A stretch of DNA of 58,229 nt, taken from positions 169,893 to 228,121 of the forward strand of contig SAJS01000010.1 of NCBI GenBank assembly GCA_004017535.1, read 5' to 3'. This stretch comes from Mesorhizobium sp. (GTDB lineage: Bacteria; Pseudomonadota; Alphaproteobacteria; Rhizobiales; Rhizobiaceae). Position numbers and translations under genes: made by a program. The notes under the pieces were generated by a model. That model saw only the letters and a program-made list of their open reading frames with translations. It was not told where the DNA came from and made no database searches. This document shows positions 6,896 through 22,048 of this stretch, in pieces. How positions within the stretch are numbered: the first letter of the stretch is position 1; each line of letters opens with the position of its first letter.

Positions 6896-7312
6896 GAGGC
6901 TTTTCCGCAGTCACCTTTGTGTGGACTGTTGAGCTGGCAGCATGATCATCCTTTTCCGCATGTTGATTTCCCCCCACATTCTTCTTCGTCGTTTGGCGTA
7001 CCGCACCTACATCGGTTAGATCTTGGGCATCGGCCGGTCCCGTGTTGCAGATCAATGTGACGAGGCAAGTTGCCATGGTTTCATGTCATTGCCGAACGCG
7101 GTGGCATACCGAGCCGGGTAATATTTTGACTCCCCAAAGTTAACATCTTCGAAAATCTCCTGTCGCAGCTCCGCCTTTTGAAAGCCGTCGACCGAGTGCG
7201 GCGACACTGGCAGGCCGCATCGCGATCAGGCGGCCGCGCAAGGCCGAGCAGGCCCATTGACCTGTATACAGGAGTTCAGGTATGCCGATCGTCAACAGGA
7301 GGCGATCGGCAA
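6896..7312. other. intergenic region between divergent genes, with a promoter/operator at its right end
   Basis: These 417 bases separate the divergent EAL gene and aldolase gene. I see no convincing gene. A minus-strand open frame (up to 7076) has no family features and overlaps the GAF start. The right end holds TTGACC (7257-7262) overlapping a perfect palindrome (7261-7272), a weak TATGCC 18 bases further on, and the aldolase ribosome-binding site AGGAGG (7297-7302). Confidence 0.5.
7261..7272. promoter_or_regulatory. GTATAC-centred 12-bp palindromic operator before the aldolase gene
   Basis: CCTGTATACAGG is a perfect 12-base palindrome that overlaps a TTGACC -35-like element at 7257-7262. 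A 10-of-12 match lies at 8981-8992, directly before the GntR gene. GntR/FCD regulators often bind short palindromes of this kind. Assignment to the local regulator is inference. Confidence 0.6.
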
Positions 7313-8038
7313 ATGACTTCATCCACCGAGGCGGCGATGCGCCAGGATCTTGCGGCGGCCTACAGGCTCATTGCCCATTTCGGCATGGACGACCTGATCC
7401 ACACACATATTTCAGCGCGACTGCCCCACGAGCCGAACCACCTGCTGATCAACCGCTACGGCGATCTGTTCCAGGAAGTCACCGCGGACTCGCTGGCGGT
7501 GATCGACCATCAAGGACACCAGGTGCGGGGCACGCAGGTTCCGATCAACACTGCAGGCATCGTCATCCACACGGCGGTCCATTCGGCACGGCCCGACGCC
7601 ATATGCGTCATGCATACGCACACCGCCGCGGGCGTGGCGGTCAGTTGTCTCGAGGAAGGCCTGCTGCCGCTTAACCAGACCGCCCTGCTCTTCTACGGCC
7701 GTGTCGGATATCACGCTTTCGAGGGGATCGCCCTCGATCGCGACGAGCAGCAGCGCCTGGTCGCCGACCTCGGCGACAATCGCGCCATGATCCTGCGCAA
7801 TCATGGCCTGCTGACGGTTGGCCGTTCCGTCGGTGAGGCGTTTTCCCTGATGTACAACCTCGAGCAGGCGTGCCGCATCCAGCTTGCCGTGCTTGGCAGC
7901 GGTCGGCCCGTGCATCTTCCCTCCAGCGACGTGTGCGAACGCACCGCCGCGCAATACGAGGCCGACCCGGACGGTGCCGCAGAACTGGAGTGGCTGGCAT
8001 TGCGTCGGCTTTCGGGCCTCGCCTTCGACGGCCGTTGA
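7313..8038 (+). CDS. class II aldolase/adducin-domain protein
   Basis: This 241-residue protein belongs to the class II aldolase/adducin family (fuculose-phosphate aldolase fold), whose members cleave or epimerise sugar phosphates and related hydroxy acids with a divalent metal held by His residues. The metal-binding HTHT lies about residue 100 (CVMHTHTAAG), and the later His in RNHGLLTVG is near 162. ATG 7313 is chosen over an upstream in-frame codon because AGGAGG sits 10 bases before it and the family start (about MRQDLAAAYRLIAHFGM) follows soon after. The dehydrogenase reading frame begins 4 bases after the stop, so the two were an operon. A palindromic operator lies about 45 bases upstream. 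The substrate cannot be read from the sequence. Confidence 0.88.
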   Translation: MTSSTEAAMRQDLAAAYRLIAHFGMDDLIHTHISARLPHEPNHLLINRYGDLFQEVTADSLAVIDHQGHQVRGTQVPINTAGIVIHTAVHSARPDAICVMHTHTAAGVAVSCLEEGLLPLNQTALLFYGRVGYHAFEGIALDRDEQQRLVADLGDNRAMILRNHGLLTVGRSVGEAFSLMYNLEQACRIQLAVLGSGRPVHLPSSDVCERTAAQYEADPDGAAELEWLALRRLSGLAFDGR

Positions 8039-8042
8039 CGCC

Positions 8043-8977
8043 GTGCGGGTCGTGCTTGCCGATCCTCTCGCCTATTCGGATGCGTTCGATATCGCGTTGC
8101 GCTCTGCCTGTCCCGGCGTGGAATTCCGCCGCTGGACCGAATGCGCGCCGGACACCGACTACGACCTGCTGGTGGCCTGGGCATTTCCACCGGACATGGT
8201 GCAACTGCCTGCTTCGACGCGCGCTGTGCTCTGCCTGGGCGCCGGCACGGATCAATTGACGTCCGATCCGCGCCTTCCCGGCGATATGCCTGTCTTGCGC
8301 CTGCGCGATCCCGCGCAGGCACAGCAAATTCTCGACTACGCCATGCACGCGGCATTCGCCCGCCAGCAGGACGATTTTTCCGTTCGTCGCAACCAGAGCG
8401 CACGCAGGTGGCAGTGGGCTGTTTCCGAGATCCGCGACCGCAGCGCCTTGTCGATCGCGGTGCTTGGCCTGGGCATGATCGGCGGTCACGTCGCGTCGGG
8501 CCTCGCGGCAGCGGGCTTCCTGGTCTCGGGCTGGTCGCGCACGCCCCGCGAACGTGTCGGCGTGACCGCCCTTCATGGCGAGTTCCGGCCGTCACGGGGG
8601 CCGATCTCCTTGTCAACCTGCTGCCGTCCAACCAGCACACGCGCGGCATTCTCGATGGGCGGGTCTTCGGCCTGCTGGCGCCGGGTGCCTATGTGGTCAA
8701 TCTGGGGCGTGGCGATCATCTCGACGAGACCGCGCTTAGGGAAGCGCTGGACAGCGGCCATATCGCCGGCGCCTGGCTCGACGTTTTTCTCCAGGAGCCG
8801 CTACCGGCCGATCATTGGGCCTGGGCGCATCAAAAGGTGCGCATCACACCCCATTGCGGCGGCCTGCCAACGCCTGAGGGAACCGCGGCCGCGATCGCGG
8901 AGGCGCTCAAAGCGCTGGCCGATCCACGAAATCCGCTGGTTTCCGCCAAACCACTTCTTGACTCCCAAAACTCCTGA
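8043..8977 (+). pseudogene. D-2-hydroxyacid dehydrogenase (GhrA-like), interrupted by a one-base frameshift at 8582/8583
   Basis: From GTG 8043 the frame gives a GhrA-like N-terminus and the NAD-binding loop VLGLGMIGGHVA, running to ...TALHGE (codon 8580-8582). It then turns into a frame without family features. One frame over, the expected sequence continues: VPAVTGADLLVNLLP, NLGRGDHLDE (catalytic Arg), DVFLQEPLP (Glu) and ITPHCGG (His), to the stop at 8975-8977. Restoring a single G after 8582 rebuilds a continuous HGEVPAVTGADLL, so one lost base explains everything. The intact protein would be ~311 residues and would reduce a 2-keto acid such as glyoxylate or hydroxypyruvate, a fitting partner for the aldolase. 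Either a true pseudogene or a sequence error. Confidence 0.85.
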
Positions 8978-8980
8978 ATG

Positions 8981-8992
8981 CCAGTATACAGA
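8981..8992. promoter_or_regulatory. second GTATAC operator, just before the GntR gene
   Basis: CCAGTATACAGA fills the 16-base gap between the dehydrogenase stop (8977) and the GntR ATG (8994). It matches the palindrome at 7261-7272 at 10 of 12 positions and keeps the GTATAC core. The location is typical for autoregulation. This is inferred, not shown. Confidence 0.55.
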
Positions 8993-8993
8993 T

Positions 8994-9707
8994 ATGCTGA
9001 AGCTGAACGCACCAATCGTGACCGAGCAGAACGAGCGACGGAACACGATATCGGCCAGGGCCTATCAGGAACTGCGCGAGGCGATCATCACCGCGCGTGT
9101 CCTGCCGGGTGCGAGCCTTGCCGAGACTGATGTCGCGCAGGCGATGGGCATCAGCCGCACGCCGGTGCGCGAGGCCTTCACCCGGCTCTTCGACGAGGGG
9201 TTGATCGAGATTTCGCCGCAGACCGGCACCCGCGTCTCGCTTATCGACATGACCCGGGTGCGCGAAGCCGTGTTCATCCGCTCGACCCTGGAAAGCGCGG
9301 TCATCGCCAACAGCGGCGTCCATCCGGATCCCGGCACGCTCGACGAAATCGAGCTGTCCTTGCGGGCCCAGGAGCGGCTGGTCGACAGCGACGACATGGG
9401 CGCCCTGCACCGCGCCGACATGGCCTTCCACTCGGGCCTGACGGCTGCCTTCGCGCATCCCCGCGCCTGGGCAGCCTGCCAGCATATATCGGCGGACATG
9501 ATGCGCGTTCAGTTCCTGATCGGCATGAAGCCGGATCACATCCGCTCGATCATCGCCGAACATCGCGCGATCCTCGATGAAGTCCGTGCCGGCAAGACTG
9601 GCGAGGCCGCGCGCCTTATGGCCGCGCACATTCGCAATGTCGACTTCGACCAGGCCACCCTCAAGCGCGAGCATCAGGAGTTCTTCCGTGCGGGAGACGT
9701 CCTGTGA
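8994..9707 (+). CDS. GntR-family transcriptional regulator, FCD subfamily
   Basis: This 237-residue regulator has an N-terminal winged helix-turn-helix (about 20-85: LAETDVAQAMGISRTPVREA, then LFDEGLIE) and a C-terminal FCD ligand domain. Likely metal/ligand residues can be seen: Asp and His in RADMAFHSGL, His in AEHRAILDEV and His in AAHIRN. FCD regulators usually respond to small organic acids and control adjacent catabolic genes. ATG 8994 follows the operator-like palindrome at 8981-8992. A related palindrome precedes the aldolase gene, so it probably represses both the aldolase operon and itself. Its TGA overlaps a GTG in the LacI frame, but a terminator-like element after it suggests the LacI gene is a separate unit. 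Confidence 0.9.
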   Translation: MLKLNAPIVTEQNERRNTISARAYQELREAIITARVLPGASLAETDVAQAMGISRTPVREAFTRLFDEGLIEISPQTGTRVSLIDMTRVREAVFIRSTLESAVIANSGVHPDPGTLDEIELSLRAQERLVDSDDMGALHRADMAFHSGLTAAFAHPRAWAACQHISADMMRVQFLIGMKPDHIRSIIAEHRAILDEVRAGKTGEAARLMAAHIRNVDFDQATLKREHQEFFRAGDVL

Positions 9708-9742
9708 TCGCTCCCGTCCGTGCCCTCGCCTTGTCAGGTCCG

Positions 9743-9764
9743 GAGCCGGCGGCCTCTTTTTTTT
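9743..9764 (+). terminator. small hairpin followed by eight T, after the GntR gene
   Basis: GAG-CC at 9743-9747 pairs with GG-CTC at 9751-9756 (one bulged C, loop GGC), directly followed by T8 at 9757-9764. The stem is short, so strength is uncertain. Its position inside the extended LacI open frame argues that the LacI coding region starts further downstream. Confidence 0.5.
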
Positions 9765-9776
9765 GGGCGGTCTACG

Positions 9777-9786
9777 AAACCGGTTT
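9777..9786. promoter_or_regulatory. LacI-type operator (AAACCGGTTT) upstream of the LacI gene
   Basis: A perfect 10-base palindrome with a central CG, the usual symmetry centre of LacI-family operators, lies between the T8 terminator and the likely LacI start. It would let the LacI protein control its own operon, including the ABC importer genes. This is inferred from position and symmetry. Confidence 0.55.
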
Positions 9787-9829
9787 ACCAGCCAAGTTCA
9801 ACATCATCCTGCCGGGAGCGTTGAAGCGT

Positions 9830-10954
9830 TTGTCGGATCGATTGAAGATCACCATCCGGGATGTCGCGCGGGCGGCGGGCGTCTCGGTAACCTCCGTGTC
9901 GCGCCATCTTAACGGCCGCATCAGCCTGCCCGACTCGACAGCGCTGAAGATCGAGCAGGCGGCTGCGCGCCTCGGCTATCGTCCCAACGCCATTGCCCGG
10001 CGGCTGACGCGCGGCAGCAGCGAGACGCTCGGCTTGATAACCTCCGACATCGCCTATCCGTTGTTTGCCGCCATCGCCTCCGCATCCGAAGCGGAGGCGG
10101 CGCGGCACGGCTACAACCTGCTGATGCTCAACAGCCGCAACCTGGTGGATCATGAGCTCGCCTTCTTGGCGCGTATCGAGGACCACCAGGTGGACGGCAT
10201 CCTGCTTCTCACCAACCATTCGGACGACGGCCGGCTGGTCAAATGCATCAACCGGACCGGCGGCGTAGTCCTGCTGGACGAGGATGTGCCGGGCGCCCGG
10301 GCGCCGCGCCTGTTTGCCAGGAACGCCGACGGCGCCCGCATGGCAACCAGCCATCTGATCGAGAAGGGCCATCGCCGCATCGGCGCGATCGCCGGCCCGC
10401 ATGGGCTGCTCAGCACGACCGAGCGGCTGTCCGGCTATGCCGAGGCGCTGGAAGCGGCGGGCATGGCGGTCGACAACCGGCTGGTGATCCATTGCGACTA
10501 TGATGAAAACCAGGCTGTCGGCGCTTTCAAGGAGCTGTTCGAGCAGCCCGATCCGCCGACCGCCGTCTTCACCTGCGGCGATATGCTGGCGCTTGGCGCC
10601 ATGCGCGCGGCGCGCGGCATGGGCCTGCGCATTCCCGAGGATGTCTCGCTCATCGGCTTCGACGATATCAGCAATGCCGACCTTCTTTCGCCGGCGCTGA
10701 CGACGGTGCGGCAGTCTCCGGCCGAATTCGGCCGGCGCGGCGTCGCCATGCTGCTGGACCTCATCACAGGCAGAAAAACAGAAGCGGTCACCGAACGCAT
10801 CGGCGTCGAGTTCGTCGTCCGTGCATCGGTCGCGCCGCCATCAGGCCGCCGGCAACGGCGGTCTGCAAGCAATACCGGTTCCGAGCCGCCAATCGGCGGC
10901 TTGGCGCCGGCCCGGGAGGAAGTCACCGAAAACCAGGACTCCAGACGGACATAA
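9830..10954 (+). CDS. LacI-family transcriptional regulator
   Basis: The N-terminal helix-turn-helix ITIRDVARAAGVSVTSVSRH is followed by the hinge (LGYRPNAIARRLTRG) and a periplasmic-binding-protein-like sensor domain with the usual GLITSDIAYPLFAAI, GHRRIGAIAGP and ISLPDST-type segments. The DNA-binding helix ends LNGRISLP. The open frame reaches back to GTG 9704 (416 codons), but LacI proteins normally start within ~10 residues of the helix, and 9704-9829 holds a hairpin-T8 and a palindromic operator. I therefore prefer TTG 9830, with GGGAG 11 bases before it (TTG 9842 is the alternative). This gives ~374 residues, still with a 40-residue Arg/Ser/Glu-rich C-terminal extension. It lies 14 bases before the binding-protein gene and probably regulates it. 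Confidence 0.85.
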   Translation: MSDRLKITIRDVARAAGVSVTSVSRHLNGRISLPDSTALKIEQAAARLGYRPNAIARRLTRGSSETLGLITSDIAYPLFAAIASASEAEAARHGYNLLMLNSRNLVDHELAFLARIEDHQVDGILLLTNHSDDGRLVKCINRTGGVVLLDEDVPGARAPRLFARNADGARMATSHLIEKGHRRIGAIAGPHGLLSTTERLSGYAEALEAAGMAVDNRLVIHCDYDENQAVGAFKELFEQPDPPTAVFTCGDMLALGAMRAARGMGLRIPEDVSLIGFDDISNADLLSPALTTVRQSPAEFGRRGVAMLLDLITGRKTEAVTERIGVEFVVRASVAPPSGRRQRRSASNTGSEPPIGGLAPAREEVTENQDSRRT

Positions 10955-10968
10955 AAAGGGGAACAGTC

Positions 10969-12069
10969 ATGTCCAGCAACCGCTTTGGTCAAGACGCAGC
11001 GTTAATAGCAATCGAGAAGTTCAAATCCGGTCGGATCGACCGTCGCTCCTTCCTTACCGCTATGGCCGGCCTCGGCCTCGCTGTCGCGGTGCGGCCCGGC
11101 GCGGCATCGGCGGAAGCCAATGAGATCGTCGTCTGCAATTGGGGCGGCGCCGCGCTCGACGCCTTCCAGAAGGCCTATGGCGACCCCTTCACCAAGAAGT
11201 CGGGGATACAGGTCGTGATCGATGGCGCCGGCCCGGAAACGGGCGCGATCCGCGCAATGGTCGATTCCAAGAATGTGACCTGGGACACCACCGACGGCGG
11301 CATGACCGACGCGCTCGTGCTCGGCAAGGGTGGCTATGTCGAACCGATCGACTACTCCATCGTCGACAAGAGCCTGGTCGGCGACGGCCTTGCCGCCGAA
11401 TTCGGCATCTGCAACTACACCTATTCCAACGTGCTCGCCTACGATTCCAAGAAGCTCTCGACCGCGCCTTCCAGCTGGGCCGACTTCTTCGATCTTGAGA
11501 AATTCCCCGGCAAGCGCACGATGTGCAAATGGATCCAGGGCCAGCTCGAGGCGATCCTGCTCGCCGACGGCGTCAAGCCGCAGGATATCTATCCGCTCGA
11601 CGTCGACCGCGCCTTCAAGAAGCTGGAGCCGCTTCTGCCGAACCTGATCTTCTGGGAGTCGGGCGCGCAGAGCCAGCAGCTCTTCCGTGACGGCGAGGTG
11701 GTGATGGGCAACATCTGGCACACCCGCGCCAACCTGCTGCGCAAGGAGAACCCCCAGTTCACCTGGACCTGGAACAACAACCTGATGTTTGCCAGCGCAT
11801 GGTCCGTGCCGAAGGGCAACCCCGCCGGCAAGAAAGTGTTCGACTTCATCAACTCGTCGATGGAGCCGGAGGGCCAGATCACCCTGCTGCGCATCATGGG
11901 GAATGGCCCGTCCAATCCCAAGGCGCTCGCTCTCATGACCGAGGAAGACAAGGCGGTCTATTCGCTGGCGCCGGAGAACGCCAAGACAGGCTTGAAGATC
12001 TCGGCCCAGTATTACGCCGAAAACGAAGCCGCGCTGCAGAACAAGTTCCTCGATTTTATCTCTCGCTGA
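10969..12069 (+). CDS. ABC transporter substrate-binding protein, polyamine/opine type (PotD/PotF-like)
   Basis: This 366-residue periplasmic solute-binding protein has a Tat-like signal: RIDRRSFL then a hydrophobic core (TAMAGLGLAVAV) and an Ala-rich cleavage region ending ASAEA. The mature part begins EIVVCNWGGAALDAFQKAYG, the usual opening of the family that binds spermidine, putrescine and related cationic amines. The start ATG 10969 follows GGGGAA. Two permeases and, further on, an ATPase complete the importer. A strong stem-loop after the stop probably raises its expression over the permeases. The nearby amidinotransferase-like enzyme suggests a guanidino or polyamine-like ligand. This is inference. 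Confidence 0.88.
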   Translation: MSSNRFGQDAALIAIEKFKSGRIDRRSFLTAMAGLGLAVAVRPGAASAEANEIVVCNWGGAALDAFQKAYGDPFTKKSGIQVVIDGAGPETGAIRAMVDSKNVTWDTTDGGMTDALVLGKGGYVEPIDYSIVDKSLVGDGLAAEFGICNYTYSNVLAYDSKKLSTAPSSWADFFDLEKFPGKRTMCKWIQGQLEAILLADGVKPQDIYPLDVDRAFKKLEPLLPNLIFWESGAQSQQLFRDGEVVMGNIWHTRANLLRKENPQFTWTWNNNLMFASAWSVPKGNPAGKKVFDFINSSMEPEGQITLLRIMGNGPSNPKALALMTEEDKAVYSLAPENAKTGLKISAQYYAENEAALQNKFLDFISR

Positions 12070-12076
12070 TCAGGGA

Positions 12077-12104
12077 CGGCCACCGGCTTCCAGGCCGGTG
12101 GCCG
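12077..12104 (+). promoter_or_regulatory. 11-bp stem-loop between binding-protein and permease genes
   Basis: Bases 12077-12087 and 12094-12104 form a perfect 11-bp GC-rich stem with a 6-base loop and no T run. Such hairpins commonly stabilise the upstream binding-protein message or attenuate transcription into the permeases. The permease ATG lies 10 bases after it, so it may also limit translation. Confidence 0.7.
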
Positions 12105-12114
12105 GATAGCCGCC

Positions 12115-12954
12115 ATGTCGTCTTTCCAGCGTTGGGCCTTCGGCCTGACGGTGCCGGCCGCGCTATTGACGATCTGTCTCTACGTGGTCCCCATCCTTCA
12201 GATGCTGGCGCTCTCATTCACCGAGCCGACCTTCGGCTTCGGCAACTATGTCGAGATGCTCGGCAGCGCCGCGATCGGGCGGGTCGTGCGCACGACGATG
12301 ATCGTCTCGGCGGTGACGACCGTGCTGACGATCGTCATGAGCTATGCGGTCGCCTTCGCGCTGGTCCACATGCGGCCGGCCGCGCGCCGCGTCGCGCTGT
12401 TCATGGTCATGGTGCCGTTCTGGGTCTCGGTGCTGGTGCGCGCCTTTGCCTGGATCACCATCCTGCGCCGCAACGGCGTGCTCAATTCGGCGCTGGTCGG
12501 CAGCGGCGCGATCGCCGAGCCGCTGGAGCTCGTCTACAATCAGTTCGGCGTGATCGTCGGCATGGTCCACTACATGATGCCGTTCGCGATCCTGCTGCTC
12601 TACGCCAACCTTTCCGAAATCGACCCGCGCGTAATTCAGGCAGCGCGGTCGCTTGGGGCGAGGCCCGTTACCATCTTCACCCGCGTCTGGCTGCCGCTCA
12701 GCCTGCCCGGCCTTGCGATCGCCAGCCTGTTCATCGTCATCTTCTCGCTCGGCTTCCTGGTGACACCGGCCATCCTCGGCGCCGGCCGCGTGCTGATGGT
12801 CGCCGAATATATCTCGGTGCAGATCTCCTCGACCTTGCGCTGGGGGGTGGCAACCGCCCTCTCCACGACACTGCTGATTGTCGTCGGGCTGCTGGTCGCG
12901 GTCGCCGCGCGCAGTCCCGCGCTTCGCGCCGCCTTCGAGGGCGGACGCCGATGA
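12115..12954 (+). CDS. ABC transporter permease (PotB-like)
   Basis: This 279-residue inner-membrane permease of the binding-protein-dependent family has six or so hydrophobic helices, starting with LTVPAALLTICLYVVPILQM. The cytoplasmic EAA loop that docks to the ATPase is RVIQAARSLGARPVTIFTRV (about 172-191). It is the first of two permeases in this importer. Its TGA overlaps the ATG of the second (ATGA at 12951). ATG 12115 comes straight after the intergenic stem-loop. Confidence 0.9.
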   Translation: MSSFQRWAFGLTVPAALLTICLYVVPILQMLALSFTEPTFGFGNYVEMLGSAAIGRVVRTTMIVSAVTTVLTIVMSYAVAFALVHMRPAARRVALFMVMVPFWVSVLVRAFAWITILRRNGVLNSALVGSGAIAEPLELVYNQFGVIVGMVHYMMPFAILLLYANLSEIDPRVIQAARSLGARPVTIFTRVWLPLSLPGLAIASLFIVIFSLGFLVTPAILGAGRVLMVAEYISVQISSTLRWGVATALSTTLLIVVGLLVAVAARSPALRAAFEGGRR

Positions 12955-13760
12955 GCCCGCGTTTGCGTCGCATAGGGGAGCGCTGGCTGCCCTGGACCCT
13001 GGCATGGCTGCTGCTTGCCTTCCTGTTCGTGCCCGTCCTGGTGGTCGTGCCGGTGGCGCTGACGGCGAAGGATTATTTGTCGTTGCCGACCACCGGCATC
13101 TCATTCCAGCACTTTGCCTCGCTTGCGGACTGGCGCGCCGGCTGGCTGCCAAGCATCCTGACCAGCCTGGGCATAGCGCTCGGCTCCAGCATCGTTGCTA
13201 CCGGCGTGTCGGCGGCCTTTGCCATCGGCGCCTGGGTCTATGCCGGGCGATGGCCCTCGACCCTGCGCATCATTCTGCTCTCGCCGCTTATCGTGCCGCC
13301 GATCATCTACGCCGTCGGCATGGTGCGGCTGTGGTCGAAGCTGTCGCTGCTCGACAGCTGGCTCGGCGTCACCATCGTCCATGTCATCCTGGCGATGCCG
13401 CTTGCCGTTCTGGCGATCGGCGCCTCGCTGTCGAATCTCGATCCGCGCCTCGTCCAGGCCGCGCGTTCGCTGGGCGCCCGCCCGCCCACGGTCTTTGGCA
13501 GGGTGATCCTGCCCAATATCCTGCCGGGCACGATCGCCGGCGCCATCCTGGCCTTCATCGTCTCCTGGGACGAGATCACGGTCACGCTCTTCATCACCAG
13601 CCGCCGGCTCGTGACGCTGCCGCGCAAGATATGGACAAGCATCGCCGACGCCGTCGACCCGGCGCTGGCCGCCATCGCCACTGTCATGCTCGTCATCACC
13701 ATCATCTGCCTGTTGCTGCGCATGACCGTTTGGGAGCGTCTTGCGCAGCGCCGGTCGTGA
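12951..13760 (+). CDS. ABC transporter permease (PotC-like)
   Basis: This 269-residue second permease begins with MSPRLRRIGERWLPWTLAWL, a cytoplasmic basic start then the first helix. The EAA-type loop is RLVQAARSLGARPPTVFGRV. The ...VSWDEITVTLFI segment is typical of PotC/PotI-type proteins. Four-base ATGA overlap with the preceding permease shows translational coupling. With the binding protein and ATPase it makes a complete type I importer for a small, probably cationic, solute. Confidence 0.9.
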   Translation: MSPRLRRIGERWLPWTLAWLLLAFLFVPVLVVVPVALTAKDYLSLPTTGISFQHFASLADWRAGWLPSILTSLGIALGSSIVATGVSAAFAIGAWVYAGRWPSTLRIILLSPLIVPPIIYAVGMVRLWSKLSLLDSWLGVTIVHVILAMPLAVLAIGASLSNLDPRLVQAARSLGARPPTVFGRVILPNILPGTIAGAILAFIVSWDEITVTLFITSRRLVTLPRKIWTSIADAVDPALAAIATVMLVITIICLLLRMTVWERLAQRRS

Positions 13761-13800
13761 ACCCCATCCAGTCCGCAAGTTCAGAAAGGAAATCAAGGAC

Positions 13801-14820
13801 ATGTCAGCACACACCGCCGCAATGAGCGAACACGAATATCGCGAGGCGAAATTCTTCCAGACATTCGGATCGGTGCCGACGCCGGCTTTCCACGATCCAG
13901 AGGAGCAGACGCGCGTCTGGGGGCGCCCATGGGGCTGCACCAACGATGTCGGCAAGCTGCGCGCGGTGCTGATGCATCGCCCGGGCGAGGAGATCAACGT
14001 CGTCGACAAGAACAAGCCGATGCCCGAGATCGGCGGCTTCGGCGACCCGGAGAAGGGTTGGTACTTCATGGGCAAGACGCCGCCGGATCTCGCCGCCATG
14101 CAGGTCGCCCATGACGCCTTCACCGCGCTGCTTCGCTCGGAAGGCGTCGATGTGATCCTCACCGAGAAGGCGGCGCCCGGTGCGCTCAAGTCGACCTTCT
14201 GCCGTGACAGCGTCATCGGTGTCAAAGGCGGCGCCATCGTCACCCGCCTTGCCCGGCGCGCTCGCCGCGGCGAGGAACTGATGGTCACCCAGGCCCTTGC
14301 AAAGGCCGGCTGCCCGATTCTGGGAACGTTGCATGGCGAAGCGGTGTTCGAGGGTGGCGGCTTCGCGCTGATCGACGAAAAGACGGCGGTCTGCTCGCTC
14401 TCCGTCGCCTGCAATGAGGAAGGCATCCGTCAGGTCGAGATGATCCTCAACAGCCTCGGCGTCGAGCTGATCAAGGTGCCGATGCCGGGCTACCGAATCC
14501 ACATCGACGGCAGCTTCATGATGATCGATCACGGGACCGCCATCATCAACATCAACGAGCTCCCCTACTTCTTCATCGACTACCTCAAGAAACGCGGCAT
14601 GAATCTTATCGAGCTCCCGCCCGAGGACAATGCCTTCTCATTGAACTGCCTGGCCATCGCGCCCGGCAGGGTCGTCATGCATGCCACCCGCACTCCCCGG
14701 CTCGCCGAGCGTCTGGACAAGGTGGGCATCACCATCTTGACGCTCGACTATGAATGCATCGAACTGAACGGCGGCGGCATCCATTGCTCGACAGGGCCGC
14801 TCGCCCGGGATCCGAACTGA
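13801..14820 (+). CDS. amidinotransferase / dimethylarginine dimethylaminohydrolase-family enzyme
   Basis: This 339-residue member of the guanidine-modifying (arginine deiminase) superfamily has a beta/alpha propeller fold. The catalytic triad elements are seen: acid in FEGGG (Glu 184), His 234 in HIDG, and nucleophile Cys 329 in NGGGIHCST. The family hydrolyses or transfers the amidino group of arginine, methylarginines or related guanidino compounds. ATG 13801 has AAGGA-type sequence before it. The longer frame from 13741 would overlap the permease. It lies inside a transporter operon, between permease and ATPase genes, and its stop abuts the ATPase ATG, so its substrate is probably what the importer brings in. 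The exact substrate is unknown. Confidence 0.85.
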   Translation: MSAHTAAMSEHEYREAKFFQTFGSVPTPAFHDPEEQTRVWGRPWGCTNDVGKLRAVLMHRPGEEINVVDKNKPMPEIGGFGDPEKGWYFMGKTPPDLAAMQVAHDAFTALLRSEGVDVILTEKAAPGALKSTFCRDSVIGVKGGAIVTRLARRARRGEELMVTQALAKAGCPILGTLHGEAVFEGGGFALIDEKTAVCSLSVACNEEGIRQVEMILNSLGVELIKVPMPGYRIHIDGSFMMIDHGTAIININELPYFFIDYLKKRGMNLIELPPEDNAFSLNCLAIAPGRVVMHATRTPRLAERLDKVGITILTLDYECIELNGGGIHCSTGPLARDPN

Positions 14821-15879
14821 ATGGCCTTCCTCGACATCCGCACGCTTCGCAAGGCCTACGGATCGGCAATCGCGCTCGACGGCGTCGACCTGTCGATCAA
14901 CGAGGGCGAATTCGTCACCTTGCTCGGCCCATCCGGCTCGGGCAAGACAACCCTGCTGATGTCGATCGCCGGTTTTACCAGGCCGGACTCAGGAACGATC
15001 CTGCTCGACGGCGCCGACATCACCGGCGTCGATCCCGAGGACCGCAATTTCGGCCTGGTTTTCCAGGGTTATGCGCTGTTTCCCCATCTGTCGGTGGCAA
15101 ACAACATCGCCTTCCCCTTGCGCGTGCGCAAATGGGACAAGGCGCGCATCGCCGCGCGCGTTGATGAAGTGATGAAGCTGGTCGGCCTCGACAAGCTCGC
15201 CGCACGCAAGCCGCGCGAATTGTCCGGCGGCCAGCAGCAGCGCGTGGCCATCGGCCGCGCGCTTGCTTTCGGGCCAAAGATCCTGCTGCTGGACGAACCC
15301 CTCTCGGCGCTTGATCGCAAGCTGCGCGACGCCATGCAGCGTGAGTTGAAGCGTCTCCACCAGGAAACCGGCGTCACGTTCGTTTTCGTCACGCATGACC
15401 AGGAAGAGGCCTACGCCATGTCGGACCGCATTGCCGTCTTCCAGAACGGCAACATCGTTCAGATCGGCGGTCCGCGCGAAATTTACCGTGCGCCGGCCTC
15501 GCGCTTCGTCGCGGGCTTCCTCGGCGGCAACAACATCCTCTCGGCCCAAGCGGACGGCGCGCAACTCGATCTTTTCGGCATCCGCATGCCTATGCCCGCC
15601 GCCTATGACCGGATGCGTCACGGCGACGGCGCGATCACGGTCTGGGTCCGCCCGGAAGACATCACCCTCGGTGATGTGGCGCCCGGCGCGGTCTCCTTCT
15701 CCGTCACGGTCGCGGACGTGTCCTTCGTCGGCACGTCGGAACGCGTCACCGTCATCACGACCGACGGGCAGGAACTGAGCGTGCTCGCGCCCTCCGCGGC
15801 AGCCCGCGAGTTGACCCCCGGCAGCACGGCAACCTGCGCCCTCCTGCCATCGGTCATCGGATTTCTGGCGCGCGAATAG
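14821..15879 (+). CDS. ABC transporter ATP-binding protein (PotA-like)
   Basis: This 352-residue ATPase has Walker A GPSGSGKTT (about 36-44), a Q-loop in VFQGYALFPHLSV, signature LSGGQQQR (about 135), Walker B ILLLDEP (about 156) and switch His in VFVTHDQEEA. A C-terminal TOBE-type domain follows (VWVRPEDITLGD). All key residues are intact, unlike the secretion ATPase at the left of the window. The ATG is immediately after the amidinotransferase TGA, so the genes are coupled. It energises the polyamine-type importer encoded just upstream. Confidence 0.92.
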   Translation: MAFLDIRTLRKAYGSAIALDGVDLSINEGEFVTLLGPSGSGKTTLLMSIAGFTRPDSGTILLDGADITGVDPEDRNFGLVFQGYALFPHLSVANNIAFPLRVRKWDKARIAARVDEVMKLVGLDKLAARKPRELSGGQQQRVAIGRALAFGPKILLLDEPLSALDRKLRDAMQRELKRLHQETGVTFVFVTHDQEEAYAMSDRIAVFQNGNIVQIGGPREIYRAPASRFVAGFLGGNNILSAQADGAQLDLFGIRMPMPAAYDRMRHGDGAITVWVRPEDITLGDVAPGAVSFSVTVADVSFVGTSERVTVITTDGQELSVLAPSAAARELTPGSTATCALLPSVIGFLARE

Positions 15880-15946
15880 CGTGCCTGCCACCCCAAGCCG
15901 GTCGTCCGTCGCGGCGCCATCGGCAACAGCATCAACGAGGACAGAA

Positions 15947-17308
15947 ATGACCGTCACCCTGCGCAACGTGGACATCCCGGATTTCGGCCTTCCGGTGGAG
16001 CGCCCCGCCATCCCGGCCGCGACGTATGAAACGCGCTGCGCCCGCGCCATCAACAAGTCCGGCGCCGACTGGCTGGTTGTCTATGCCGATCGCGAGCACG
16101 CCGCCAACATCGCCTTCCTGACCGGCTTCGAGCCTCGCTTCGAGGAGGCTCTGCTGCTTCTGGGCAATGCAGGCCAGCGCATCATAGTCACCGGCAACGA
16201 GAACATCGGCTACACGCCGATCGCCGGCTTGCCCGGCATCGTCACGATGCTTGCCCAATCACTGAGCCTGATGGGCCAGGATCGCAGCCAGAAGCCGCAT
16301 CTTGTCGCGGTTCTGCGCGAAGCTGGGCTCGGGTCCGGCGATACGATTGGCGTCGTCGGCTGGAAGTATCTCGAAGGCGAGGAGTGGGATTTGGCGAATC
16401 CGACCTTCTTCGCGCCGTCTTTCATCGTCGATGCGATCGTAGCGATCGTCGGCCCGTCCGGTGTCGTGGACGCCACCCGCGTGCTGATGCACCCGGTCGA
16501 GGGCCTGCGGGCCGTGGTCGACGCCGACCAGATCGCCGAGGCCGAGTGGGGAGCGTCGAGGGCATCGATGGCGGTCTGGCGGATCGTCACGGGCTTCACC
16601 CTTGGCGACAGCGAGCTCACGGCCGCGTCCCGCATGGGCTATGCCGGCGAACCGATGAGCTGCCATCCGATGTTCGCCTCCAATGATGCGAGCGGCCCGG
16701 TCATCGGCCTGCGCAGCCCGACAGGTCGGGTGCCGCGGCGCGGCGAGGGTGTAACCACGGCGGTCGGTTACTGGGGCGGCCTGACGGCTCGCGGCGGCCT
16801 GATCGCCGAGGCCGACGCCGCTTTCCTGGAGATGGCCAGGGCCTATTTCGACGGACTGATCGCCTGGTATGAAACGGCCGGAATCGGTGTCGAAGGCGGC
16901 GCGATCCACGAGGCGGTGATCTCAACCCTGGCCCGAGGCAGGCTGCGGCCGGCCCTCAATCCCGGCCATCTTGTCGGCCTCGACGAATGGATGCACTCGC
17001 CGATCCGTCCGGGCTCGAGCGAGCGCCTGGCGTCCGGCATGCCGTTCCAGGTCGACATCATTCCCGTGCCGATGCCTGACGGCGTGACGCTCAACTGTGA
17101 GGACGCCGTCACCTTCGCCGACGCGGGCCTGCGCGCGACCATCGCCGAGCGCTATCCAACGCTCGCGGCGCGTTTCGCCGCGCGCCGGCGCTTCGTCGCC
17201 GCTGAGCTTGGCGTCGAGGTCAAGGACGACATGCTTCTGCTGTCGGCCATCCCGCTTAGCCTGCCGCCATTCTGGCTGACGCCCCAAAAACTGTTGGCGC
17301 GGAACTGA
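15947..17308 (+). CDS. M24 'pita-bread' family protein (Xaa-Pro peptidase/creatinase-like), metal ligands mostly missing
   Basis: This protein of ~453 residues has the two-domain M24 layout: a creatinase-type N-terminal domain (NIAFLTGFEPRFEEALLLL) and a C-terminal pita-bread domain with GHLVGLDEW (family GHGIGL) and LASGMPFQVDI (family LEPGM). The His of GHL and the Glu of NCEDAV are kept. The two metal-binding Asp of the family (DxG...D.TR) appear replaced in the TTAVGYWGGLTARGG stretch, and the EP motif reads VDI. Creatinase, which cleaves creatine to sarcosine and urea without metal, shows that loss of ligands can go with guanidino chemistry, but that reading here is inference. ATG 15947 has GAGG 7 bases upstream; a GTG at 15881 is in frame but poorer. 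Last gene of the importer operon. Confidence 0.82.
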   Translation: MTVTLRNVDIPDFGLPVERPAIPAATYETRCARAINKSGADWLVVYADREHAANIAFLTGFEPRFEEALLLLGNAGQRIIVTGNENIGYTPIAGLPGIVTMLAQSLSLMGQDRSQKPHLVAVLREAGLGSGDTIGVVGWKYLEGEEWDLANPTFFAPSFIVDAIVAIVGPSGVVDATRVLMHPVEGLRAVVDADQIAEAEWGASRASMAVWRIVTGFTLGDSELTAASRMGYAGEPMSCHPMFASNDASGPVIGLRSPTGRVPRRGEGVTTAVGYWGGLTARGGLIAEADAAFLEMARAYFDGLIAWYETAGIGVEGGAIHEAVISTLARGRLRPALNPGHLVGLDEWMHSPIRPGSSERLASGMPFQVDIIPVPMPDGVTLNCEDAVTFADAGLRATIAERYPTLAARFAARRRFVAAELGVEVKDDMLLLSAIPLSLPPFWLTPQKLLARN

Positions 17309-20590: not shown

Positions 20591-22048
20591 ATGACCATTC
20601 AAGGCGCTTCGCCTGACCTCTATAACGAGGATTTGGCTCCGGCAACGGTCAGGAACTGGGGACCGTTTTCGATCTTCAATGTCTGGACCTCGGACGTCCA
20701 CAGCCTATGGGGCTACTATCTGGCAGCCAGCCTGTTTCTGTTCTGCGGCGGCTTTGTCAATTTCATCATCGCCATCGGCATCGGCTCGCTGATCATCTAC
20801 GCGCTGATGAACATGGTCGGCTATGCCGGGGTGAAGACCGGCGTGCCCTATCCCGTGCTTGCCCGTGCCTCCTTCGGCATCTGGGGCGCCAACATTCCGG
20901 CGCTCGTGCGCGCCATCGTCGCCTGCTTCTGGTATGGCGCTCAGACGGCCGCGGCGTCGGGCGCCATCGTGGCGCTGCTGACGCGCCTGCAATGGTTCGA
21001 CGAGTTCAACAAGAGCTCGCATCTTCTGGGACATTCGACCTTGGAGGTGATCTGCTTCGTCGTCATCTGGGCATTGCAGCTGCTGATCATTCAGAAGGGC
21101 ATGGAGACGGTGCGCCGCTTCCAGGACTGGGCCGGGCCCGCCGTCTGGGTAATGATGCTGCTTCTGGCCATCTATCTCTGCGTGAAGTCCGGAACTTTCG
21201 CTTTCACCAGCGACATCCCCATGGATGTGCTGCGCGAGAAGACCGCCGACGCCGGCATTCCGGGCGATCCGGGGTCGTGGACCGCGCTCTTCGGTGCCGC
21301 GGCGATCTGGGTGACCTATTTCTCGGCGCTCTATCTCAACTTCTGCGATTTCGCCCGTTATGCGCCGGACAATGCCGCACTTCGCAAGGGCAATATCTGG
21401 GGCCTGCCGGTCAATCTGATCCTGTTCTCGCTAGTCGCCGGCGTCACGACGATCGCTGCCTACGACGTCTACCATGAAGTGCTGCTCCATCCCGACCAGA
21501 TCTCGGCCAAGTTCGACAGCTGGTTCCTGGCTGCCCTTGCAGCGCTCACCTTCGCGGTGGCGACGCTGGGCATCAACGTCGTGGCGAATTTCGTCTCGCC
21601 GGCCTTCGACTTCTCCAACGTCTTCCCGCGCCAGATCGACTTCAAGAAGGGCGGCTACATCGCGGCGTTGATCGCCCTGGTGCTCTATCCCTTCGCGCCC
21701 TGGGAGGGCAGCGCCGCGCATTTCGTCGGGATCATCGGCGCGACGATGGGACCGATCTTCGGGGTGATGATGGTCGACTACTATCTGATCCGCAAAAGCG
21801 AGGTCGATGTTCAAGCGCTCTATCGCGAGGACGGCGAATTCCGCTTCCAGGGCGGCTGGCACGTCAACGCCTTCATCGCCGCCGGCATCGGCGCGATCTT
21901 CTCTTCGATCCTGCCCAATTTCACCAACCTGCTGCCGTCCTGGTGGGGCGTCTATGGCTGGTTCTTCGGTGTGGCCATCGCCGGCGCCGTCTACTACGTC
22001 CTGCGCACCATGGCGCTCGGCGCCGGGGCGAAGATGGCGAAGGCATAA
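20591..22048 (+). CDS. NCS1-family permease (cytosine/purine/allantoin-type cation symporter)
   Basis: This 485-residue inner-membrane carrier has ~12 hydrophobic helices. The family opening is well kept: NEDLAPATVRNWGPFSIFNVWTSD, then LFLFCGGFVNFIIAIGIGSL, and KTGVPYPVLARASFGIWGANIPALVRA. The central YLNFCDFARYAPD and late FDFSNVFPRQIDFKKGG segments are also typical of NCS1 transporters for nucleobases, hydantoins or allantoin. The substrate is not decided by these motifs, and no catabolic partner lies next to it. ATG 20591 follows AGAAGGGGA by about 8 bases. It converges on the DUF1697 gene. Confidence 0.88.
   Translation: MTIQGASPDLYNEDLAPATVRNWGPFSIFNVWTSDVHSLWGYYLAASLFLFCGGFVNFIIAIGIGSLIIYALMNMVGYAGVKTGVPYPVLARASFGIWGANIPALVRAIVACFWYGAQTAAASGAIVALLTRLQWFDEFNKSSHLLGHSTLEVICFVVIWALQLLIIQKGMETVRRFQDWAGPAVWVMMLLLAIYLCVKSGTFAFTSDIPMDVLREKTADAGIPGDPGSWTALFGAAAIWVTYFSALYLNFCDFARYAPDNAALRKGNIWGLPVNLILFSLVAGVTTIAAYDVYHEVLLHPDQISAKFDSWFLAALAALTFAVATLGINVVANFVSPAFDFSNVFPRQIDFKKGGYIAALIALVLYPFAPWEGSAAHFVGIIGATMGPIFGVMMVDYYLIRKSEVDVQALYREDGEFRFQGGWHVNAFIAAGIGAIFSSILPNFTNLLPSWWGVYGWFFGVAIAGAVYYVLRTMALGAGAKMAKA

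Follow-up and report, generated by a model that had tools for sequence, protein, structure and literature searches.

Guanidino compounds are nitrogen-rich molecules that are widespread in legumes, in soil and in the sea, and to our knowledge importers for guanidino acids are little characterised. Among described systems, creatinase (creatine amidinohydrolase) is a member of the M24 family that lacks the metal aspartates and has His232 as its catalytic pocket histidine, DoeA/EutD is an M24 member that acts on ectoine, whose ring is an amidine, and the arginine transaminase route employs 2-ketoarginine decarboxylase and guanidinobutyrase. Arginine deiminase and dimethylarginine dimethylaminohydrolase (DDAH) are cysteine hydrolases with a Cys-His-Glu triad, and a 2-nitroimidazole nitrohydrolase, NnhA, hydrolyses a nitroimidazole by a mechanism suggested to resemble theirs (PMC11659421). 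In ectoine catabolism the DoeA/EutD hydrolase opens the ring and the DoeB/EutE deacetylase acts next (PMC5924519). The binding protein Pf622 recognises gamma-aminobutyric acid (GABA) through W9, T13, F100, Y102, W202, R205, D228 and Y264, and of these it is D228 that holds the ligand's amino group (PMC12999171). Here we describe a ten-gene cassette that combines an importer related to Pf622, an arginine-deiminase-like (ADI-like) hydrolase and an M24-fold protein. It lies in a 58,229-nucleotide stretch of Mesorhizobium sp. (assembly GCA_004017535.1, contig SAJS01000010.1, positions 169,893 to 228,121), referred to as the window.

We propose, with a probability of roughly 0.5, that the cassette serves the uptake of a guanidino carboxylic acid, its deimination and a subsequent C-N hydrolysis. 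The ATP-binding cassette (ABC) importer would take up a carboxylic acid bearing a guanidino (or similar amidine or ureido) head, and the ADI-like cysteine hydrolase, using C329 with H234, E184 and two aspartates, would attack the guanidino carbon to release ammonia and a ureido compound. The M24-fold protein would then cleave the remaining C-N bond, a step that M20-like amidohydrolases or ureohydrolase-family enzymes near the ADI-like gene may perform in sister systems. The class II aldolase and the D-2-hydroxyacid dehydrogenase would process the carbon skeleton, by then a hydroxy or keto acid, and the GntR and LacI regulators would sense the substrate. The proposal builds on gene content, co-inheritance, catalytic residues and a pocket change read from alignments, and guanidino-type company in some sister loci; the parts of the cassette and their gene company are well supported. 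From these we infer the reactions and their order, with two hydrolases acting in turn, the handling of a hydroxy acid by aldolase and dehydrogenase, the regulator ligands and the exact substrate.

The cassette is co-inherited as one unit, collinear over several genera. The order from the binding protein through to the M24 gene recurs at 17 loci besides the window (L039, L043-L045, L050, L052, L055, L063, L065-L069, L072-L075), in hosts that include Mesorhizobium, Shinella, Kaistia, Hoeflea and Pseudooceanicola. Two of these loci (L039 and L074) are both from Shinella sumterensis, and in L055 two further genes separate the ATPase from M24; L070 and L071, in which the binding protein and permeases form a second, inverted set, are excluded from the 17. 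All 17 loci have the aldolase and a match to the GntR/FCD regulator, which at L052 covers just 47% of its length; 15 have the dehydrogenase and 11 the LacI regulator. The earlier note on this stretch had named failure of binding protein, amidinotransferase-like enzyme and M24 protein to co-occur elsewhere as grounds for abandoning its proposal, and these loci answer that doubt.

The same linkage appears in samples drawn without regard to gene order. In an order sample of 397 evenly drawn genomes, used for M24 and ADI counts alike, the M24 protein is found in 30 genomes and an ADI-like protein at E 1e-40 or better in 25. Seven of these 25, the window genome included, carry a close ADI (at least 73% identity), and all seven also carry M24 (hypergeometric P 7e-09, uncorrected for relatedness); the other 18, at 43-53% identity, include three with M24 (G135, G228 and G322), at 38-43% M24 identity. 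A similarity search of named genomes with the ADI-like protein as sole query returned 13 loci, 12 of which have M24 beside ADI and ATPase, the thirteenth (L064) being left out of the counts as its contig stops inside the ATPase. In a plasmid collection, 64 records have M24 and two, both from Shinella, have a close ADI (80-90%) together with M24, while a phylum-wide ADI search at E 1e-30 found two of 398 genomes, the window's own among them. Because none of the eight other listed genomes of the window's genus group has M24 or ADI (E 1e-40), while named Mesorhizobium genomes do have the cassette (L065, L067-L069), it is accessory; its distribution in soil and plant-associated bacteria is patchy and its spread is probably horizontal. 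An ordinary GABA or polyamine importer that the enzymes adjoin by chance could be imagined from permeases that score best against PotB and PotC and a binding protein nearest to GABA proteins, but collinear co-inheritance over several genera largely refutes it, and both the Asp that holds the GABA ammonium and the Tyr are changed in every cassette binding protein aligned; we regard it as highly improbable.

The ADI-like protein belongs to the guanidine-modifying enzyme superfamily, scoring above the PF02274 cut-off (Table 1) and retaining C329, H234, E184 and D136 by sequence alignment, the basis of all residue mappings given here for this enzyme, the M24 protein and the binding protein. Of the six positions that align with the catalytic set, D136, E184 and H234 are kept in 29 of 29 relatives, C329 and R135 in 28 and D236 in 27, and R155 of the RxGE motif, which we take to bind the substrate carboxylate as in arginine deiminase and DDAH, is kept in all 29. 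With arginine deiminase, DDAH and agmatine deiminase the window enzyme shares the Cys-His-Glu/Asp catalytic set and the GGGIHC motif, but it stands far below the curated cut-offs for arginine deiminase (57.4 bits against 489 for arcA TIGR01078; 57-59 against 414-489 for arcA-type models) and dimethylargininase (25.9-53.4 bits against 300-450 for NF045658, NF045659 and NF045660), falls in a clade of close copies of its own and is encoded inside an importer operon. The earlier note had placed such an enzyme within the transporter genes, and it does lie there, between permease 2 and the ATPase. In a quick tree the close ADIs, including the second copies of L070 and L071, form one clade (Shimodaira-Hasegawa-like approximate likelihood ratio test 100), with long branches elsewhere.

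Compared with PDB sequences, the ADI profile matches bacterial DDAH best (1e-29), followed by arginine deiminases (best 7e-26) and, over the full length, NnhA (1e-21). The NnhA alignment and the low scores against the arcA and DDAH models are what would be expected if the enzyme acted on a non-guanidine (a cyclic amidine, a ureido acid or an imidazole-like ring), in the manner of NnhA or the citrulline hydrolases, and the cassette degraded that compound; PuuE-like and biuret-hydrolase-like genes, which accompany some ADI relatives, point the same way. We nevertheless hold this to be improbable: 27 of 29 relatives keep the HxD pair, which the alignments show in both arginine deiminase rows but in none of the DDAH rows, and genes for ureohydrolase-family, creatininase-like and 2-ketoarginine decarboxylase proteins lie beside relatives of the importer.

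The binding protein finds its best PDB matches in the GABA proteins Pf622 (E 4e-57) and Atu4243 (3e-56), then in agropine permease (8e-44) and mannopine-type proteins (5e-37 and 7e-35), against 7e-05 for PotD. Against the spermidine/putrescine PotD model NF007048 it scores 26 bits, with a cut-off of 582, and a spermidine importer is rejected on these PotD scores. The description of the importer as polyamine-type in the earlier note is therefore apt for the permeases, which are best matched by PotB and PotC, and has to be given up for the binding protein, which is of GABA/opine type. Similarity to Pf622, Atu4243 and agropine permease extends over most of the protein and includes R205, but the pocket differs. 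At the GABA-site positions the window protein has W58, A62, Y150, Y152, W250, R253, S276 and N312, so that the GABA-binding D228 is replaced by S276 and Y264 by N312. In an alignment of 32 binding proteins (the window, 19 from cassette-type loci and 12 from sister loci), R205 is kept in all 32; T13 has become Ala in every one of them, and D228 has likewise given way throughout to Ser, Gly or Ala and Y264 to Asn, Gly, Gln or Cys. By eye in pairwise alignments, positions 228 and 264 are Thr and Tyr in 4i1d and Glu and Tyr in agropine permease. The altered pocket would fit a ligand with a carboxylate, probably held by R205, but with a non-ammonium head.

Pocket type goes together with gene company. 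Binding-protein matches at E 1e-50 occur in 77 of 387 genomes of the order sample, and 60 listed loci were picked by hand (40 of higher and 20 of lower identity), with one binding protein scored per locus and an ADI-type or ureohydrolase-type gene within about 8 kb on each side counted as a guanidino-type neighbour. Three mixed-pocket loci (L168, L193 and L195) fall outside both groups. Such a neighbour is present at 18 of the 38 loci where residue 228 is small and residue 264 is not Tyr, against one of the 19 with Asp at 228 (Fisher p 0.002), an association at the level of clades rather than 57 independent trials, because pocket type tracks overall identity and six of the 18 positive loci come from the window's own genus. 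Retention of the ADI catalytic set, the altered binding pocket and this difference in neighbours together lend support to the guanidino reading. The pocket varies more in the wider 60-locus set than in the cassettes, where neither Ser at position 13 nor Met at 264 is seen, and L153 has Gly at 205; an M20-like amidohydrolase is found, within the same distance of about 8 kb each side, in 14 of 16 ADI-bearing survey loci, and an aldolase in three of the 38 altered-pocket loci versus none of the 19 with Asp-228.

The window genome itself has a second system of this kind (L174; contig 55, 191940-209010), comprising a binding protein of the same type (40% identity), a long M20-like amidohydrolase and a DDAH-like gene that is 91% identical to that of plasmid locus L129. 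The same set occurs at five of the seven other same-genus loci fetched (L164, L167, L169, L170 and L173, not L152 or L153, from whose genomes only some of the further binding-protein matches were fetched), and this system may belong to the core of the genus.

Relatives of the ADI-like enzyme and of the importer extend the picture. From the order sample, 14 of 19 places with a second-clade ADI were fetched, seven of which (L114-L120) have it beside this type of binding-protein operon (the two permeases merged in clustering, and cluster-based permease counts are unused). L115, L116 and L119 add a ureohydrolase-family gene (PF00491), a biuret-hydrolase-like isochorismatase, a metallo-beta-lactamase and a PuuE-like deacetylase; in the L116 copies the ureohydrolase falls under the agmatinase cut-offs, the biuret-hydrolase-like protein scores 277 bits (cut-off 370) and the PuuE-like protein 88 bits (cut-off 425). 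L117, L118 and L120 add a long M20-like amidohydrolase (107.5 bits in L117, against a TIGR01891 cut-off of 153.75), and L114 has an aldolase, a thiamine pyrophosphate enzyme and a PuuE-like gene. In Kozakia L082, ADI, M20-like, aldolase and deacetylase genes are found with an amino-acid importer in place of this type. In annotated plasmids the importer type is combined at L128, L129 and L130 with an M20-like amidohydrolase and a DDAH-like gene, and in Bosea with a pair of agmatinase-type genes, of which one exceeds the TIGR01230 cut-off, together with a creatininase-like gene that stays under its own cut-off. L129 also encodes a 2-ketoarginine decarboxylase (739 bits, cut-off 500), a family also present in L136 and L149, the last with a ureohydrolase-type gene as well; in this the sister loci resemble the arginine transaminase route, but the window cassette has neither that decarboxylase nor guanidinobutyrase, and has aldolase and dehydrogenase instead. 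Many of these loci share one formula, in which an importer is joined by a guanidino-type enzyme and by a C-N hydrolase whose fold can be exchanged; the aldolase is a repeated addition.

The candidate C-N hydrolase of the cassette is its M24-fold protein. On its own the window protein has zero Pfam or NCBIfam matches, at E 0.001 as at E 0.01, and when its own genome is searched with PF00557, ten other places are listed and this one is not. It is assigned to the family because its relatives match PF00557 (14 of 36) and PF01321 (15 of 36) and its profile matches prolidases and aminopeptidase P. The positions of the five M24 metal ligands (Asp, Asp, His, Glu and Glu) align with A272, A281, H341, D370 and E385, so the full ligand set is not present and the protein is metal-site-poor, as the earlier note had said, with two of the five lost. 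All 36 M24 sequences share twelve invariant residues (R64, E66, E67, W139, K140, R282, W307, H341, E347, W348, D370 and E385), and the protein is on that account under strong constraint. In a quick tree, cassette and non-cassette copies are mixed, with four changes of which at least three are forced by starred branches; because at least three changes here contrast with a single clade of close ADIs, an M24 of this clade joined the ADI more than once, or moved out. This intermixing led us to reject M24 as a guanidine-specific marker, and, judged by its gene contexts, it is an exchangeable protein of uptake loci.

Other M24 copies keep varied company. M81 (MlrC-type) or M20 metallohydrolase genes lie close to M24 at L040 and L041 (annotated) and at L049, L057 and L076 (by clustering), in most cases together with sugar ABC genes; this company suggests that a substrate class of amide type is shared at those loci. 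At L040, one of the M24 loci without a close ADI, citrulline hydrolase CtlX is annotated about 7.4 kb from the M24 gene. A GATase1-like gene stands beside or within two genes of M24 in three contexts (L055 7148-7915, L062 8172-8903 and L066 13537-14307), assigned by PF07090 in L055 and by clustering in L062 and L066, and a plasmid of the haloarchaeon Halomontanus rarus (L042) has a 39% identical M24 copy among sulfatase genes.

Two Rhizobium loci (L070 8462-17135 and L071 9992-18683) have two ADI paralogs each: one is the cassette copy, accompanied by ATPase and M24, and the other lies inverted with the binding protein, permeases and an M20D hydrolase. With M24 and an adjoining M20D they resemble the DoeA/EutD and DoeB/EutE pair of ectoine catabolism; for the L071 M20D the TIGR01891 score of 354 bits lies over the cut-off of 154, and the DoeB2 score of 329 bits under that of 550. 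The window M24 differs in having no match named ectoine hydrolase up to E = 1, and an ADI-like step is not named for ectoine in the passages of PMC5924519 that describe the route.

The main alternative is a different order of events, in which an N-acyl or peptide-like (opine-like) conjugate of a guanidino amino acid would be imported, its amide cut first by M24 (or an M20-like enzyme) and the product deiminated by the ADI-like enzyme. In its favour, prolidases are the closest matches of the M24 profile, agropine and mannopine proteins are relatives of the binding protein, M20-like hydrolases lie near ADI-type genes in most of the ADI-bearing survey loci, and L071 supplies an M20D that passes its family model while staying under the DoeB2 cut-off. 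The two metal aspartates and the aligned pocket histidine of a peptidase M24 are gone, however, the long M20-like protein remains under the TIGR01891 cut-off, which makes an acylase type unsure, and at L115, L116 and L119 the ADI is accompanied by ureohydrolase- or biuret-hydrolase-like genes, not acylases. We consider the conjugate doubtful, though a reading to keep in mind.

Several observations weigh against import and stepwise opening of a guanidino acid, most of them concerning M24. Its profile finds its nearest PDB sequences among prolidases and aminopeptidase P (E 2e-08); Asp is found at the first two metal positions in 0 of 36 relatives; and a pocket His at aligned positions 254-258 is likewise found in 0 of 36, in an alignment without a creatinase sequence, with His at 253 in three. 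M24 occurs without a close ADI in 23 of its 30 order genomes and 62 of its 64 plasmid records, sugar ABC loci that have ROK or LacI regulators, as well as other importer loci, harbour copies at 53-66% identity, and 23 M24 loci without a close ADI, of all identities, yielded with the same probes no ADI and one ureohydrolase (L056). Beyond M24, no guanidino enzyme was found by the neighbour test at 20 of the 38 altered-pocket loci, and the other seven second-clade ADI loci (L121-L127) have no such importer, ureohydrolase, M20-like gene or aldolase by the same probes, the sole non-ADI match being a metallo-beta-lactamase in L122. The dehydrogenase reading frame is broken near 8581 in the window genome. 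NnhA, moreover, is a superfamily member that acts on a non-guanidine (PMC11659421).

Part of the earlier proposal is affected by this. A creatinase-like M24 had been suggested there, and the likeness extends to membership of an M24-like fold family and absence of the metal aspartates in the window protein. It differs from creatinase in that no profile match up to E = 1 bears that name and the family has no His at the aligned pocket positions; with prolidases as the profile matches and hardly any guanidino gene in other M24 contexts, we have lowered this candidate, and the comparison serves as a lead only. The wider suggestion of guanidino catabolism keeps its footing in the ADI catalytic set, the co-inheritance of the cassette and the ureohydrolase, DDAH-like and 2-ketoarginine decarboxylase company of some relatives, and loses the creatinase-like step.

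For the later steps of the proposed guanidino route, two Acetobacteraceae plasmids are informative. Kozakia L131 and Komagataeibacter L133 each carry an ADI-family gene, a GhrA-like dehydrogenase and an aldolase of the same kind, with an amino-acid importer; the three adjoin one another in L131 and span about 7 kb in L133, and their identities to the window proteins are 24-25% for the ADI-family protein, 34% for the dehydrogenase and 54-55% for the aldolase. That these three come together there speaks in favour of a hydroxy acid being handled by aldolase and dehydrogenase. A more specific and rather speculative version, which we think unlikely as a whole, is a pathway for a hydroxylated guanidino acid (such as 4-hydroxyarginine or a related 2- or 3-hydroxy acid) of legume and soil niches. 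In it the metal-free M24 would be a ureido (carbamoyl) hydrolase with a new catalytic set (R64, E66, E67, K140, R282, H341, E347, D370 and E385), the aldolase would cut the hydroxylated chain, and the cassette would be one branch of a larger, so far unrecognised clan of importers for guanidino acids, in which an ADI-type hydrolase or a ureohydrolase works with an M24 or M20 partner that can be swapped.

The ten genes occupy window positions 7313-17308, all on the + strand and separated by short gaps or overlaps (Table 1), in agreement with the block of about ten kb outlined by the earlier note, whose GntR/FCD and LacI regulators are confirmed by their Pfam domains. The ATPase was called from its open reading frame, without a family-library scan. 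At the break in the dehydrogenase frame, the window shows a ten-base alignment gap against Mesorhizobium sp. ORS3359 (L065), and the gene is one intact frame in all 16 relatives checked; the break may be genuine or an assembly error. A large membrane protein resembling NCS1-type nucleobase transporters, read without a family-library scan, is encoded at 20591-22048, 3.3 kb downstream of the cassette; since such a gene also comes after the cassette in L065 but is absent from the genes called in L067, it probably belongs to the chromosomal flank.

Table 1. Genes of the cassette, with positions in the window and the basis of each assignment
Gene product	Position	Strand	Basis
Class II aldolase (PRK07044 type)	7313..8038	+	PF00596, 165.7 bits; NF005451, 319 bits (cut-off 207, passed)
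D-2-hydroxyacid dehydrogenase, GhrA-like	8043..8977	+	Two half-frames match PF02826 and GhrA/D-2-hydroxyacid dehydrogenase models
GntR/FCD regulator	8994..9707	+	PF00392 and PF07729
LacI regulator (helix-turn-helix from about 9836)	9704..10954	+	PF00356 and PF13377
Solute-binding protein, GABA/opine-type, altered pocket	10969..12069	+	PF13416; PDB matches Pf622, Atu4243, agropine permease
ABC permease 1	12115..12954	+	PF00528; best NCBIfam model PotB, 144 bits (under cut-off 348)
ABC permease 2	12951..13760	+	PF00528; best NCBIfam model PotC, 113 bits (under cut-off 326)
ADI-like hydrolase, guanidine-modifying enzyme superfamily	13801..14820	+	PF02274, 60.9 bits (cut-off 22.8)
ABC ATPase	14821..15879	+	Open reading frame; 69% identical Shinella gene annotated as ABC transporter ATP-binding protein
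M24-fold ('pita-bread') protein, two of five metal-ligand positions lost	15947..17308	+	Relatives; profile match to prolidase/aminopeptidase P, E 2e-08

Every component family of the cassette is already known. Literature searches found no description of the operon, the pocket rule or the M24 branch, which is weak evidence of absence as most subscription journals lie outside their coverage. The analysis brings to notice an M24 branch that is devoid of the usual metal ligands and is carried between uptake loci, and it ties loci with guanidino-type enzymes to a recognisable alteration of the pocket within the GABA/opine family of binding proteins, providing a testable sequence rule by which such importers may be found.

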